Below are positions 10,459 to 56,923 of a stretch of 59,431 nucleotides of DNA, one piece after another; position 1 is the stretch's first letter; each line of letters begins with the position of its first letter. Made by a program: the position numbers and the translations under genes. Where the stretch lies: assembly GCA_021731815.1 (NCBI GenBank), contig JAKFWO010000011.1:1-59431 (forward strand). The letters are read 5' to 3'. The stretch comes from Hyphomonadaceae bacterium. Lineage in GTDB: Bacteria > Pseudomonadota > Alphaproteobacteria > Caulobacterales > Aquidulcibacteraceae. The notes under the pieces were generated by a model that worked only from the letters and a program-made list of their open reading frames with translations, had not been told where the DNA came from and made no database searches.

Positions 10459-10911
10459 TCAGGAACGCATGGCCATTCGCTGGATCGCCATTTCGTCAAA
10501 GGCAGCGGTTTCGGCCGCCGCCAAAGCCCGTTCCCGCCGGGCTTTGGCCTCATTGGCCAGAAGCTCCACCTTCTTTTCATCGGCAAAGGCCGAGACCAGC
10601 GCCCGGCGCAACACATCCACCCGCTCACCCACTTCCGAGACCTGGGCTTCAAGGGTCTTCTGCTTGTCGCGGCTGGCGCGCAGAAACGCCGCCAGCGACT
10701 GGAGTTCCACCGGATCAACCCGGCCGGACACGGTCGGGTCGGCGGCTGCGGCTTCGGCCGAGCGCGTTCGCTCCAGCGCCTCCACCCCGGTGAGCAGGCG
10801 CATCTTGTCGCCATCGGCAGCCGACAGCGCCTTTTGCAGCGCGTCGATCCGGTGGCGTGCGATCTTGAGGAGTGCCGGGGCTGATTTCATGGCGGTCTGG
10901 GTTCCGTTCAT
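10459..10911 (-). CDS. fliJ: FliJ-like flagellar export chaperone
   Basis: A 150-residue, almost entirely helical, charged protein of the size and composition of FliJ, the stalk protein of the flagellar export ATPase. Sequence identity in this family is low, so the call rests mostly on context: its ATG overlaps the fliI stop codon by 4 nt (ATGA), giving the classic fliI-fliJ pair. No other flagellar gene is in the window. Confidence 0.75.
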
Positions 10912-12236
10912 TTGGAGGCAAGGATGGTGCCGAGTTCGGCGAAGGATTCGTGAAAGCCCTGCCGCTCACCGGGGGCCTGGGAAAGAAAGCGCTCGAGTGG
11001 GCCATTGAGCGCGATCGCGCGGTCGATCTCGGGATCGGCCCCGCGCGCATAGGCCCCGATGCGGATCAGTTCTTCCATGTCGGAATAATGTGCGAGCGCC
11101 CGCCGGGCGGCGGCCACCAGTTTCTGCTCGTCGGGCGTATGGCATTGGGGCATGAGCCGGGAAATTGAGCGCAGCACATTGACCGCCGGATAACGCCCGC
11201 GTTCGGCGATGCGTCGTTCCAGCACCAGATGCCCGTCGAGAATGCCCCGCGCCGCATCCGCCACCGGCTCGTTATGGTCATCGCCATCGACCAGAACCGT
11301 GAAGATGCCGGTGATGGAACCCGAGGCTCTGCCGCCCCCCTCCTGCATGCCGGGGCCGGCGCGCTCCAAGAGGCGCGGCAATTCGGCGAAAACCGACGGG
11401 GTATAGCCCTTGGTGGTGGGCGGCTCGCCCGAAGCCAGCCCGATTTCCCGCTGTGCCATGGCAAAGCGCGTAACCGAATCGAGCAGGCATAATACTTTCA
11501 GCCCCTCATCGCGAAAATGTTCCGCGATCGCCAATGTCATCCAGGCGGCCTGCCGGCGGCGCAAGGCCGGTTCGTCCGAGGTCGCAGCCACGACCACGGC
11601 GCGCTTGAGCCCTTCGGGGCCGAGCGAATCCTCGATGAACTCGCGCACTTCGCGGCCGCGTTCGCCGATCAGGCCGATCACCACGACATCGGCCGCCGCC
11701 CCCTTGGCGAGCATCGACATCAGCACCGATTTGCCGACACCTGAGCCCGCAAACAGGCCCATGCGCTGGCCCTCGCAAATGGCGGCAAAGAGATTGACCG
11801 CCTTGACCCCGAGATCGAGCCGCGGCCCGACCCGCGCCCGCCCATGTGCCGAAGGCGGATTGGCGCGGATGGCGCGGGGCCGGGGCCCGCGCGGCAACGG
11901 CCCCAATTGGTCGGCCGGCGCGCCAAAGGCATCGACGACCCGCCCGAGCCAGCCGGGGGACACGCGAATCTCACTCGATTCCGGCAGAAAAAACACCGGC
12001 GCACCTGGCCGCAATCCTTCCAGCGTTGCAAAGGGCATCAGAATGGCGCGCGATTCGGCAAAGCCGACGATCTCGGCGGCCGGCCCGTCCACCGCCCCGA
12101 GCCGCGCCCGCGCCCCGATGCGCATGGCTTCCAGCGGACCCGTGGCTTCGAGCTTCAGCCCGTTGAGTCCCGCCACCCGGCCGCGAAAATAGCGGTAATC
12201 GGTGCGGGCGATATCGCTGGCCAGTTCGGCAAACAT
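10908..12236 (-). CDS. fliI: Flagellum-specific ATPase FliI
   Basis: Peripheral ATPase of the flagellar type III export apparatus, 442 residues, the usual length. The Walker A motif AGSGVGKS is at 163-170, and the Walker B region [12 protein letters not shown] is near 245-256. [20 protein letters not shown] is the typical FliI/YscN signature. The gene forms a two-gene operon with fliJ, as in Caulobacter, where fliIJ is also separate from the main flagellar clusters. A perfect CtrA box lies 82-96 nt upstream of the start, suggesting cell-cycle control. Confidence 0.95.
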
Positions 12237-12317
12237 GGAGGCTCTCTGCCTTCAACCCCGGGTTCCGGGCGGGATATCCGTCCGGGAAACTGCGAATCGA
12301 GAATTGGGCAGAGCGCT

Positions 12318-12332
12318 TTAAGCAGCAGTTAA
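12318..12332. promoter_or_regulatory. CtrA binding site upstream of fliI
   Basis: TTAA (12318-12321), seven bases, TTAA (12329-12332): the exact CtrA consensus TTAA-N7-TTAA. It lies in the 124-nt gap between mltG and fliI. CtrA directly controls early flagellar genes in Caulobacter, which supports a functional site. Confidence 0.7.
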
Positions 12333-12360
12333 TTTCGGGGCGCGGCGCAGGGCTCCAGCC

Positions 12361-30186: not shown

Positions 30187-30293
30187 GCGCCTTGCAGCGC
30201 AGGACTTGTTATGTCCGCGCCTTGCAGCGCAGGCCTTGTTGTGACCGCGCTTTGCAGCGCAGGCCTTGTTGTGTCCGCGCCTTGCGGCGCTGC
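30187..30293. repeat. 30-bp tandem repeat, three and a half copies
   Basis: Units start at 30187, 30217, 30247 and 30277 (last one partial). Each contains GCGCCTTGCAGCGC, itself a short palindrome, followed by AGGCCTTGTTGTG. The repeat lies upstream of rpsM. The apparent open frames through it arise because 30 is divisible by three. Confidence 0.85.
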
Positions 30294-42858: not shown

Positions 42859-44034
<1,176 letters not shown>

Positions 44035-44048
44035 TTAAATTAAGGAAG

Positions 44049-44068
44049 GATTCACGGAATCACGAATC
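44049..44068. promoter_or_regulatory. Cluster of three GANTC methylation sites upstream of ccrM
   Basis: GATTC (44049-44053), GAATC (44057-44061) and GAATC (44064-44068) lie within 20 bp in the region between the divergent ccrM and thiolase genes. In Caulobacter two GANTC sites in the ccrM promoter region link its transcription to the methylation state, so a comparable autoregulatory switch is plausible here. Adjacent TTAA motifs (44035, 44040) do not have CtrA spacing. Confidence 0.6.
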
Positions 44069-44276: not shown

Positions 44277-45455
44277 ATGAGCGATTCCATAGTCATTGCC
44301 GCCGCTGCCCGCACGCCGGTCGGTTCCTTCAGCGGCGCGTTCGCGACCACGCCCGCCCATGATCTGGGCGCGATCGCCGTCGGTGCGGCGCTTGCCCGCG
44401 CCGGGGTGGCCGCAAGCGAGGTCGATGAGGCGATCCTCGGTCAGGTGCTGACGGCAGCCCAGGGCCAGAATCCGGCGCGCCAGGCGGCGATCAAGGCCGG
44501 GCTCGCTCATGGCTCGACGGCGATCAGTATCAACCAGGTCTGTGGCTCCGGATTGCGCGCGGTTGCCATGGGAATGCAGCAGATCCTCGCAGGGGACGCC
44601 GATATCGTGGTGGCCGGCGGACAGGAGAGCATGTCGCTTTCCACCCATGCCGCTTATCTGCGGGCCGGCCAGAAAATGGGCGACCTGTCCTTCATCGACA
44701 CCATGATCCGCGACGGCTTATGGGACGCCTTTCACGGCTACCACATGGGCGTAACCGCCGAAAACGTCGCCGAAAAATGGCAGATCACGCGTGACGAACA
44801 GGACCAGTTCGCTACCTCCTCCCAGAACAAGGCCGAGGCCGCCCAGAAGGCCGGGCGTTTTGCCGATGAAATCGTTCCCGTCACCATCAAGGGCAAGAAG
44901 GCCGATATCGTGGTCGATGCTGACGAATATATCCGCCATGGGGCCACCATGGCCGCCGCCGCCAGTCTGCGCCCGGCCTTTAAAAAGGACGGCACCGTCA
45001 CGGCAGGCAATGCATCGGGGATCAATGACGGGGCCGCCGCAATGGTGCTCATGACCGAGGCCAATGCCGCCAGACGCGGGTTGAAACCCATGGCGCGGAT
45101 TGCCTCCTGGGCGACAGCCGGGGTCGATCCCGCGATCATGGGCTCGGGCCCCATTCCCGCGGCGCGCAAGGCGCTTGAAAAAGCGGGCTGGAAAATCGGC
45201 GATCTCGACCTCGTCGAAGCCAATGAAGCCTTTGCCGCCCAGGCGCTGGCGGTCAACAAGGATCTCGGCTGGAACCCGGATATCGTGAATGTCAATGGCG
45301 GGGCGATCGCCATCGGCCACCCGATCGGGGCTTCGGGCGCGCGCGTCCTCACCACCCTGCTGTTCGAAATGGGCCGGAGGGGCGCGAAAAAGGGCCTCGC
45401 CACATTGTGCATCGGCGGCGGCATGGGCATTGCGCTCTGCGTGGAGGCCAGCTGA
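44277..45455 (+). CDS. Acetyl-CoA acetyltransferase (thiolase)
   Basis: 392 residues, a biosynthetic-type thiolase that joins two acetyl-CoA to acetoacetyl-CoA. The nucleophilic cysteine is in [15 protein letters not shown], the second motif is [17 protein letters not shown], and the C-terminal catalytic cysteine is in TLCIGGGMG. The start at 44277 has AGAGGAA upstream; the longer frame adds 11 residues. No phaB or phaC is nearby, so a role in polyhydroxybutyrate cannot be confirmed from context. Confidence 0.94.
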
Positions 45456-45558
45456 AATTCCGGCTTCCCCTCTCACAAGGACAATGGGCAGGGATCCACC
45501 CCGATCGAATCATCGCGGTTCGATCGGGGATTGCTGCCCGCAGCCCTCATGACAATCG

Positions 45559-45573
45559 TTAAGAAATAATTAA
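45559..45573. promoter_or_regulatory. CtrA binding site upstream of chvI
   Basis: TTAA (45559-45562), GAAATAA, TTAA (45570-45573), then C: the full consensus TTAA-N7-TTAAC. It lies 119-133 nt upstream of the response regulator start, in the gap after the thiolase gene. Confidence 0.7.
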
Positions 45574-45691
45574 CCAAACATGAGTAATTTGTTATGGCCA
45601 CCGGAAAGCGGCAATAAATTCGCAACCTTGTGGCACGCGACGGACGCGCGACAGAAAGTCCGCGCCAGCAGAATTCGGAGGTTCCAAACCC

Positions 45692-46402
45692 ATGCTCAGC
45701 ATTGCAATCGTCGAGGACGTCGAGGAAACCCTGCGCACTCTGGAAAGCATGTTCCGGGCAAGGGGGTTCACGATCCGCAGTTATCGTGATGGCGAAACCG
45801 CGCTGACCGCGATTCTGAACACCCCTCCGGATCTCGTGCTGCTCGATCTCGGCCTGCCGAGGATGCACGGAATCGACGTGTTGAAACGTATCCGGCAATC
45901 CTCCGAGATGCCGGTCATCGTCCTCACCAGCCAGGACACGGAATCAGACGAAATCATCACCCTGACATTGGGAGCCGATGAATTCATTTCCAAGCCCTAT
46001 TCCGAACGTCTTCTGATGCTGCGGGTCGACGCGGTTTTACGCCGGGTACAGGCACCACGCCCGGTTGCGGGCGAAGAACGCGCCCGTGTGCTCATTCGGG
46101 GGAAATTGCAACTCGACCCCAATCAGCAATGTGCGTTCTGGGGCGAGGCACTGATCAAGCTGACGCCGGGCGAGTTCACGATCCTTGAATCGCTCGCCAC
46201 CCGCGCCGGACATATCAAGAGCCGCAGCAATCTGCTCGATGTCGCCTATCGCGACCAGGATGATGTCGAAGAACGCGTGATTGATACCCATATCAAGCGC
46301 ATCCGTGCCAAGTTCAAGGCCGTCGATCCGGATTTTGAGGCGATTCAAACGGTCTATGGTGCGGGATATTCCTTCAACCAGCCGCCAGCCGCGACGATCT
46401 GA
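45692..46402 (+). CDS. chvI: ChvI-like OmpR family response regulator
   Basis: 236 residues. The receiver domain has the phospho-acceptor Asp52 (LVLLDLGLPRM), the switch threonine in VIVLTSQD and the conserved lysine in FISKPYS. The winged-helix domain carries SRSNLLDVAYRDQDDVEERV and IDTHIKRIRAKFKAVD, which match the ChvI subgroup closely. ChvI controls acid and envelope-stress responses in alphaproteobacteria. The kinase gene follows about 150 nt downstream. The usual neighbour hprK is not present. Confidence 0.9.
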   Translation: MLSIAIVEDVEETLRTLESMFRARGFTIRSYRDGETALTAILNTPPDLVLLDLGLPRMHGIDVLKRIRQSSEMPVIVLTSQDTESDEIITLTLGADEFISKPYSERLLMLRVDAVLRRVQAPRPVAGEERARVLIRGKLQLDPNQQCAFWGEALIKLTPGEFTILESLATRAGHIKSRSNLLDVAYRDQDDVEERVIDTHIKRIRAKFKAVDPDFEAIQTVYGAGYSFNQPPAATI

Positions 46403-46550
46403 ATGATCAGCGGACAATTCCCTTCGCGGCGCGATCCTTCATCCCGGCAGGGTCGGACTATTTCGGTAGCAGATCGGGGCGCCGGACGTATCAGGATCAA
46501 GCCAGTCCCGGCTCCAGGACCGACCCGGTGCGCAAAAACAGCGAACGCCG

Positions 46551-48347
46551 ATGGCGGATGACGGGAAGGCATTCCAATCGGGCGGGTGGCGTATCGGTGT
46601 CGCCGATTCCTCCCGCGCTGATGCCCGGATCCTGACCCAGTCGCCGGTTGCCGTGCCGCGCCGACGGATTCGCAGCCGCCTTTTCGCCGGTCTGCGCTCG
46701 GGCATTGGACGCGCGATCCTGTTTGCCAATCTGGCAATGTTCGCACTGGTCGCGCTTGGATTATTGCTGCTTTCGGAAACCCGCAACGAACTGGTGCGGG
46801 CCCGCCTCGCTTCGCTGGAAGCCCAGGGCGAGCTGATCCGCGCGCAACTGGCCGTGCAGGCCAGCGAAAACATTGCCGATCCACGCCTCAACGAAGCGAA
46901 AGCCCGGGACGTCCTTCTGGCATTGCAGATACCATCCCCGACCCGCGTCAGGATCCATTCAATCACCGGTATTGAAATTGCTGATTCATTCCTGCTCAAC
47001 GACATTGTCGACCGCCAATCAGTCAGCAATCGCGCCCCCGGGCAGGGGATCCTTGCGCCATTCGCCAAAGGGTTGCGGTCTGTCCGCGAGCAAATCCGCG
47101 AATGGAGCATGCGCCGCGCCGGGATTGAGGTGATCGCGAGCCTCGACAGCGAATGGCGGCGGGCGCTGGCAGGCGAAATCATGCGCGGCGAGCGCGCCGG
47201 CGACAAGGGAGAACGGATCGCCTCGGTCTCCATGCCGATCGCGCCGGTAGCGGCGATCATTGGCACGGTAACGCTCGAATCCGCCGATATTGACAGAATC
47301 ATTGCCAAGGAACGCGCAGCAGTGCTCCCCTATATTGCCGGTGCGGCTCTCTTGCTGGCCGGCCTGTCGATCCTGCTGGCATATCTCGTTGCCGTACCGA
47401 TTCTGAGCCTCGCAAAAGCGGCGGAAGCAGTGGCAAGCGGGGCGCACAAGGCGCTCCGGATCGATCGGGCCCTGCGCCGCAAGGATGAAATCGGCGACCT
47501 CGCTTCTTCCTTGCAGGCCATGATCGAAGCCCTGCAAAGGCGCAGCGAGGAATATGCGCGCGAGGCGGTCAACAACGCCCATGAACTCAAAAATCCTGCC
47601 AATGCGATCGGCCTTGCCGCCGACCGCCTTGCCGTGATCCAGGACGATATTCTCAAACAGGCCGAAATCGGCAATATCCGCGATTCCGTTCGACGCCTGC
47701 TCAGGATCATCGAAGGGGTGACCAATCTTGCGCGTTATGTGGATCAATCAGGCACCGCCCCCCGGGCACCGACCAGGATCTTTGATTTATTGGCGGCCAA
47801 TGCCGAAATCATCTGGGGGCCGGATGGAGAATCGCGCGGAGTGCGGATCAATCTTGAGAGCGAGCCCGGGCTCGAATCCGCAACCGTTCTGAGCTGGAAT
47901 GCGGCTACCGACATGCCGGCCCTGCGCCATGTATTCCACAATATTGTGGATAACGCGCTGTCTTTCTCTCCACCAGAGAGCACGATCACCATCCGGCTTG
48001 CACGCAGCCAGATCGCAGCCGGCCGGAGTGCCGGGAGAAAGCCGGGGCCCGAGACCTCCGCACTGGTGGTCACCGTGGATGATCAGGGTCCGGGCATCCA
48101 CCCGGCAGATCTCGAAAATATATTCAAACGCTTTCAATCAGACCGGCCCTCCAGCACGTCGACCGCGATCGGAAGGCAGAATATGAATTCCGGGATCGGG
48201 CTCGATATCGCGCGCACCATCGTGAACGGGCATGGCGGGAAGATTACCGCCGAAAACCGCGTGAATTCCGAGGGGCAAATTATTGGCGCGCGCTTTGTCG
48301 TGGTATTGCCGGAAAATGTGAAGGATGCGGGGTCGTCTTTCCTGTGA
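46551..48347 (+). CDS. chvG: ChvG-like sensor histidine kinase
   Basis: 598 residues. Layout: cytoplasmic N-terminus, transmembrane helix (about 55-75), periplasmic sensor domain (about 76-257), second helix (258-282), HAMP, then the kinase core. The phospho-histidine is His344 in NNAHELKNPANAIG, a variant of the HELKNPLT box. The N-box is HNIVDNALSFSPPES, and the G-boxes are DDQGPGI and NSGIGLDIARTI. It pairs with the ChvI-like regulator directly upstream. Confidence 0.9.
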   Translation: MADDGKAFQSGGWRIGVADSSRADARILTQSPVAVPRRRIRSRLFAGLRSGIGRAILFANLAMFALVALGLLLLSETRNELVRARLASLEAQGELIRAQLAVQASENIADPRLNEAKARDVLLALQIPSPTRVRIHSITGIEIADSFLLNDIVDRQSVSNRAPGQGILAPFAKGLRSVREQIREWSMRRAGIEVIASLDSEWRRALAGEIMRGERAGDKGERIASVSMPIAPVAAIIGTVTLESADIDRIIAKERAAVLPYIAGAALLLAGLSILLAYLVAVPILSLAKAAEAVASGAHKALRIDRALRRKDEIGDLASSLQAMIEALQRRSEEYAREAVNNAHELKNPANAIGLAADRLAVIQDDILKQAEIGNIRDSVRRLLRIIEGVTNLARYVDQSGTAPRAPTRIFDLLAANAEIIWGPDGESRGVRINLESEPGLESATVLSWNAATDMPALRHVFHNIVDNALSFSPPESTITIRLARSQIAAGRSAGRKPGPETSALVVTVDDQGPGIHPADLENIFKRFQSDRPSSTSTAIGRQNMNSGIGLDIARTIVNGHGGKITAENRVNSEGQIIGARFVVVLPENVKDAGSSFL

Positions 48348-56727: not shown

Positions 56728-56812
56728 GCGGATATGGCGGAATTGGCAGACGCAACGGTTTTAGGTACCGTCGCCGCAAGGCGTGGGGGTTCAAGTCCCT
56801 CTATCCGCACCA
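56728..56812 (+). tRNA. tRNA-Leu (anticodon UAG)
   Basis: 85 nt. Acceptor GCGGATA pairs with TATCCGC, followed by ACCA. The D-arm contains GGCGGAATTGGCAGACGC; the anticodon stem ACGGT/ACCGT encloses TTTAGGT, anticodon TAG. A variable arm and a T-arm with GTTCAAGTC follow. The long variable arm is as expected for leucine. Its last bases are repeated in tandem immediately downstream. Confidence 0.96.
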
Positions 56813-56923
56813 ATTGGCCGCACCAATTGGCCGCACCAATTGGCCGCACCAATTGGCCGCACCAGTTTTGGCCGCACCAATTGGCCGCACCAGCCGGCCG
56901 CACCAGTTTTGGCCGCACGAAAC
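56805..56923. repeat. Tandem reiteration of the tRNA-Leu 3' end
   Basis: The 13-bp unit CCGCACCAATTGG starts inside the tRNA (56805) and repeats at 56818, 56831, 56844 and 56872. Variants at 56857 and 56898 have 15 bp, one variant is at 56885, and the last partial unit ends around 56923. The CCGCACCA end of the tRNA is thus present nine times. No spacer structure exists, so it is not CRISPR. Confidence 0.9.

Follow-up and report, generated by a model that had tools for sequence, protein, structure and literature searches.

A candidate CtrA box upstream of a divergent chvI-chvG-like gene pair in a Hyphomonadaceae bacterium

An intergenic region of a Hyphomonadaceae bacterium, in which a full CtrA box lies in front of two genes resembling chvI and chvG, raises the question of whether the cell-cycle regulator CtrA could act directly on an envelope-stress system. 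A preliminary description of the region had proposed such control and had added that the connection was not known to be established. In agreement with the latter remark, searches of open-access literature, read as passages of main text, did not turn up any account of an action of CtrA on chvI or bvrR. The region was analysed as part of a window of 59,431 nucleotides, the whole stretch of contig JAKFWO010000011.1 from position 1, to which all positions refer unless another contig is named.

The box and its surroundings

The box, GTTAA-GAAATAA-TTAACC, occupies positions 45558 to 45575 (full stretch GTTAAGAAATAATTAACC). Its core, TTAAGAAATAATTAA, covers 45559-45573, with the C that completes the consensus at 45574 and a preceding G at 45558, so that TTAA-N7-TTAAC is matched exactly on both the + and the - strand (as GTTAA-N7-TTAAC). 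The exact consensus match that had been claimed for 45559-45573 is therefore present in the sequence, with the C at 45574 and in both orientations. In the + orientation, TTAACCA agrees with 7 of the 8 letters of the extended half-site TTAACCAT, in the form in which it is used in PMC11527210. The box is intergenic, lying between the end of a thiolase gene (45455) and the response-regulator open reading frame, and 117 nt separate its end at 45574 from the chvI-like start codon. The reported distance of 119-133 nt between the core and the regulator likewise held, the ATG being at 45692.

The gene order is thiolase, box, regulator (45692-46402), sensor kinase (46551-48347) and then argG. The thiolase gene (acetyl-CoA acetyltransferase-like; 44277-45455, + strand) is co-directional with the regulator. 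About 1.6 kb from the box, on the opposite strand, lies the gene for the CcrM DNA methyltransferase (42859-43968, - strand), which has a match in 60 of 61 genomes. A further CtrA-type box between ccrM and the thiolase gene (44040-44055; 71 nt from the former and 221 nt from the latter) has one mismatch when read toward the thiolase gene and two when read toward ccrM.

Spaced half-sites of this type are rare in the window, where TTAA-N7-TTAA occurs twice against an expectation of 0.04 (none of 100 shuffles reached two). The second occurrence (12318) belongs to a one-mismatch CtrA-type box on both strands (12317-12333), about 80 nt before fliI, which encodes a flagellar/type III ATPase (10908-12236, - strand).

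A candidate promoter was read by eye at 45570-45598 on the + strand, with TTAACC (45570-45575) as a -35-like element followed after 17 nt by TATGGC (45593-45598) as a -10-like element. A sigma-70 consensus scan of 45400-46600 returned no promoter, a result that says little because just 0.5 was expected by chance. Also by eye, a long GC-rich inverted repeat was found between the thiolase gene and the box (45486-45539), consisting of 11 paired bases (45499-45509 with 45519-45529) and 6 more outside them. It is not followed by a T-run on the + strand, and hairpin scoring of the region returned just a small hairpin at the left edge of the repeat, on the - strand. An RNA element at 45400-45750 was considered and rejected: the sole Rfam hit at E values up to 1 was an animal microRNA family falling on the long inverted repeat (E 0.0045; 26.7 bits, with a gathering score of 90), which was taken as a chance fit. 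A scan of the window for the SciP motif gave 121 hits versus 149.7 expected, and the chvI locus holds 17 GANTC sites versus 20.95 expected. Elsewhere in the window, a 13-base unit, GCACCAATTGGCC, is present in tandem copies at 56807-56901, and TTGCAGCGCAG occurs three times at 30-base steps at 30192-30262.

A divergent regulator and kinase

The two genes downstream of the box encode an OmpR-type regulator and an adjoining membrane kinase with HAMP, histidine and ATPase domains. The regulator (236 aa, 45692-46402, + strand) comprises a receiver and an OmpR-type winged helix (Response_reg, Trans_reg_C). The sensor histidine kinase (598 aa, 46551-48347, + strand; start codon provisional) has Sensor_TM1, HAMP and HATPase_c domains in Pfam, with HisKA at 23.2 bits, under the cut-off of 26.9. 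Its top NCBIfam match was the ChvG model NF058527 at 325.5 bits, short of the equivalog cut-off of 740. This cut-off is a strict test, as the CcrM of the same genome also falls under its own Caulobacter-based cut-off (602.6 versus 830 bits).

The regulator has diverged strongly. Its identity to the ChvI of 58 relatives is 43-50%, whereas the relatives share a pairwise median of 72% and a minimum of 58% among themselves. The CcrM encoded by this genome does not stand out in this respect, with a median identity of 66% to 29 relatives (the best of 59) and of 67% among those 29. At 26 of the 86 positions that are invariant in at least 55 relatives, the regulator carries a change; likewise, 38 of 112 positions conserved at 95% or more are altered here, whereas single relatives differ at a median of 0 and at most 21 (an incomplete row). 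Within its own genome the regulator is by a wide margin the gene nearest to ChvI, the next match reaching 38% identity. Among the matches listed from 385 genomes of the class, none other than the regulator itself exceeded 50% identity. When named genomes were scanned for the regulator, 17 loci were obtained, all of them distant, with a best segment at most 41% identical, and in a tree the regulator sits on a single, very long branch whose position is not settled. A horizontal origin was considered and set aside, because with at most 50% identity among the listed class matches and a long branch no source is supported.

The neighbourhood differs as well. A ChvG-like sequence adjoins the best ChvI match in 49 of the 58 relative loci (about 1.5 kb examined on each side), and neither ccrM, nor argG, nor this thiolase was found in any of them over the same span. 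The naming of the pair as chvI-chvG is thus borne out in that ChvI and ChvG are its best matches and the architecture agrees, but the pair is very divergent, misses the NF058527 cut-off and shows atypical identity. We therefore call it ChvI/ChvG-like, with orthology likely. Its role in acid or envelope stress in this organism is one that we infer from these resemblances.

In the related Caulobacter crescentus ChvGI system (PMC9731502), the regulator and kinase genes likewise lie together and have a role in envelope and osmotic stress. There, however, hprK belongs to the same operon, whereas this genome has no HprK match. Loss of hprK was examined as a possible mark of the lineage and discarded, as just 11 of 61 genomes have an HprK match (6 of these over the cut-off), so that its absence is not special.

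The CtrA motif in this genome and before chvI in relatives

A CtrA gene is present in the genome (G000:C5:26440-27108; NF045991 at 365.8 bits, above the family cut-off of 350); a match of its product to the receiver domain of the solved structure 4qpj added nothing further. About 95 nt before ctrA (G000:C5:27203-27223) lies a TTAA-N11-TTAAC pair on both strands, possibly an autoregulatory site with unusual spacing.

The exact motif TTAA-N7-TTAAC occurs at 5 places in the genome (2,531,755 bases in 48 contigs). When the spacer was varied from 0 to 25, 32 places were found in total, 5 of them at spacer 7 and 27 across the 25 other spacers, which have a mean of 1.08 places each (excess at spacer 7: Poisson p = 0.005, binomial p = 0.007). 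Spacer 7 is enriched in this genome, at about five times the mean of the other spacer lengths. A different control pattern, the motif read backwards, gave 24 matches versus 6 for the motif itself; the spacer control was preferred because TTAA, which includes a stop codon, seldom occurs in coding sequence.

With up to one mismatch allowed, the motif is found at 50 places genome-wide, 47 of which are intergenic according to a simple gene caller. One of the 3 others is the exact box before a SEL1/coiled-coil gene that we call podJ-like; this box overlaps the end of the upstream open reading frame. Neighbouring genes were read from their translations, and 20 were checked with Pfam, two of these without a hit. 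Leaving chvI aside, 15 of the 50 places adjoin flagellar, chemotaxis, pilus or cell-cycle genes, and 34 have other neighbours. The flagellar and chemotaxis neighbours are fliI, fliF, flgB-like (two sites), fliX, fliN, motB, cheA and two flagellins; the pilus neighbour is cpaB; and those connected with the cell cycle and division are ccrM, the podJ-like gene, a DivIC/FtsB-like gene and chpT. The sites of chpT (610 nt) and of the second flagellin (680 nt) are far from their genes, while the distance from site to start ranges over 28-155 nt for fliX, fliI, motB, cheA, flgB-like, ftsB-like and podJ-like, a range that includes the 117 nt at chvI. The presence of CtrA together with 15 of 50 near-boxes at CtrA-type target classes indicates that this genome makes use of the motif, and the box at chvI appears to be a further site within a functioning CtrA regulon. 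Two of the exact boxes have no obvious cell-cycle target beside them. One (G000:C24:17787-17802; L055, 3488) lies between a gene resembling those of TonB-dependent receptors and a DUF7482-domain gene, and the other (G000:C4:79774-79789; L161, 6775) between a pabB-looking gene and a DegT-type aminotransferase gene.

Conservation of the box was assessed in 60 relatives, none of the same genus as this bacterium, by scanning 300 nt upstream of chvI in 58 of them (34 of 36 from the same family, f1, and 24 of 24 from other families of the order; G003 and G025 had no clear chvI match). Expected counts were taken from 30 dinucleotide shuffles per sequence. No exact box was found before chvI in these 58 relatives, while up to one mismatch was seen in 3 (2.1 expected) and up to two mismatches in 20 (14.3 expected). 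By contrast, the same scan before ccrM in 59 relatives (G005 had no ccrM match) gave 2 exact boxes, 27 with up to one mismatch (1.7 expected) and 52 with up to two (14.8 expected). Eight of the 27 are near-identical boxes from one genus (g5), and at other spacers 2 to 10 of the 59 ccrM regions reach one mismatch. The negative controls were at chance, with 1 of 29 for argG (1.27 expected; the 29 best of 57 relatives with a match) and 0 of 29 for the thiolase (0.23 expected; the 29 best of 60).

Within family f1, the 250 nt before chvI showed no peak at spacer 7: none of 34 loci had a box with up to one mismatch, and 10 of 34 had one with up to two, versus 5-14 at other spacers. In other orders of the class, none of 26 new loci, drawn from 166 genomes with a match, had a box with up to one mismatch (0.53 expected). 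In the set of genomes surveyed, an exact box precedes chvI here only. Judged by the preliminary description's own yardstick, presence of the box in relatives, this result speaks against a conserved CtrA-chvI link, and such a link is not supported.

Candidate control of chvI and an element in family f3

How, then, might the box act? CtrA~P would bind both half-sites beside the -35 position of the chvI promoter. With TTAACC as the -35 and TATGGC, 17 nt on, as the -10, transcription would start near 45605 and the 5' end of the box would lie near -45. CtrA would then turn on chvI-chvG at a late stage of the cell cycle, in the manner of other promoters with a full box, and production of the envelope-sensing pair would keep pace with division. 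According to Zhou et al. 2015 (PMC4287350), the 5' end of a full TTAA-N7-TTAA motif in Caulobacter lies near -35 and such motifs activate expression in predivisional cells, the box beginning at -39 for ctrA P2 and at -49 for podJ P1, where the spacer is N6. Direct activation of chvI by CtrA through this box is, on balance, somewhat probable judging from the sequence. Binding itself, activation rather than repression, the timing and any benefit are features that we infer.

In favour of CtrA are the exactness of the box, its rarity, its intergenic position with a spacing to the start codon that is typical of such targets, the presence of a CtrA gene and the occurrence of the same motif beside well-known target classes. 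Against it stand the absence of conservation in relatives, the two exact boxes without an obvious cell-cycle target and the 35 of 50 near-boxes, that of chvI included, that do not lie beside a textbook target. The proposal of direct control made in the preliminary description therefore keeps its local and genomic basis but finds no echo in the relatives, and we consider the box probably functional and the case plausible as that of a lineage-specific candidate CtrA target.

The box might instead be a chance match in an intergenic stretch, with no regulatory role at chvI, which we consider unlikely, if quite conceivable. With about one exact place for each of the other spacers, roughly one among the five exact matches may be due to chance, and the 58 relatives show no conservation while ccrM, scanned alike, gives 27 of 59. 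However, the match is exact, with G/C flanks on both sides, a TTAACCA half-site and a promoter-like position; moreover, the relatives belong to other genera, have other neighbours around chvI (about 1.5 kb) and encode a protein from which this one has strongly diverged, so that a rewired promoter would not be expected in them. A palindrome bound by some other regulator, whether ChvI itself in autoregulation, another OmpR-type protein or a MucR-type binder, appears very unlikely. The sequence comes close to a palindrome, autoregulation is common among OmpR-type regulators, and the DNA-binding half of this ChvI is changed at positions that are invariant in relatives; yet the box fits CtrA exactly, spacing included. 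Autoregulation through the Caulobacter ChvI motif, TTGC-N3-GCAA (PMC9731502), was rejected, as this motif is absent from 45456 to 45691 even with one mismatch, the nearest copies being at 43902 and 47302. A shade less likely again is that CtrA, once bound to the box, acts as a repressor of chvI or obstructs a different start site. According to PMC4287350, Caulobacter CtrA half-sites over the -10 have a repressing effect, and at ctrA a single full site is probably an activator of P2 and a repressor of P3, but the most usual position of full sites there is -35, with an activating role.

Activation of chvI by CtrA would differ in part from its nearest known counterparts. The full-site promoters of C. 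crescentus share TTAA-N7-TTAA in the promoter region and the target classes flagellum, ccrM and podJ-like, whereas here the candidate site precedes a chvI-like gene, and no chv- word occurs in the main text of PMC4287350. In Hyphomonas neptunium, CtrA ChIP-seq gave the same consensus, TTAA-N7-TTAAC, with 211 of 222 sites intergenic, but the main text of PMC7200025 contains no chv- word. Conversely, CtrA is not mentioned in the main text on Caulobacter ChvGI (PMC9731502). In Brucella, CtrA and BvrR, the ChvI homologue, are both bound upstream of omp25 (PMC10538546), so that cell-cycle and envelope regulators also meet there in alphaproteobacterial envelope control; the meeting point in that case is a shared target gene, whereas in the present bacterium the envelope system would itself be the target of CtrA. 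If true, this would be a clear case of rewiring, in which a fast-changing regulator with new neighbours gained a cell-cycle input. The wider proposition, that a ChvGI-type system has been rebuilt in this way and drawn into the CtrA regulon, with envelope surveillance as an output of the division programme, is decidedly unlikely.

A CtrA-like element upstream of chvI was also observed in one related family, f3. The signal was first noticed in 6 genomes and then sought in more, giving 58 genomes of 22 genera (2 of 60 had no match). Boxes with up to one mismatch were found at spacer 7 in 11 of 58, compared with 0-4 (mean 1.5) at the other spacers from 2 to 13, and boxes with up to two mismatches in 34 of 58, compared with 9-22 (mean 14.3); weighted by genus, the value at spacer 7 was 14.2 of 22 versus 2.2-8.4 at the others. 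In the last 25 genomes, the signal held at up to two mismatches (14 at spacer 7 versus 2-10) and failed at up to one (4 at spacer 7, 4 at spacer 8 and 3 at spacer 9). The commonest form is TTAA-N7-TTGA rather than the full consensus (L308-L362 together with L061, L066 and L069, upstream of chvI).

At 44 of the 58 f3 loci, a homologue of one divergent gene lies upstream of chvI. The boxes with up to two mismatches fall between the two genes at 34 of these 44 loci, and none is found at the 14 loci that lack the divergent gene, which indicates that the box probably serves the divergent gene, or both genes. Most likely, then, the element belongs to the divergent gene or to both, with no evidence for CtrA control of chvI alone, and its recurrence was dropped as support for control of chvI because it follows the divergent gene (34 of 44 versus 0 of 14). 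No such divergent gene is present in the window, where the upstream gene is co-directional and stops short of the box. For one example of the divergent protein, the first 75 residues gave no Pfam hit, and the gene may be an unrecognised CtrA target. The shared divergent promoter with its CtrA-like box could represent a second, weaker instance of the rebuilding considered above.
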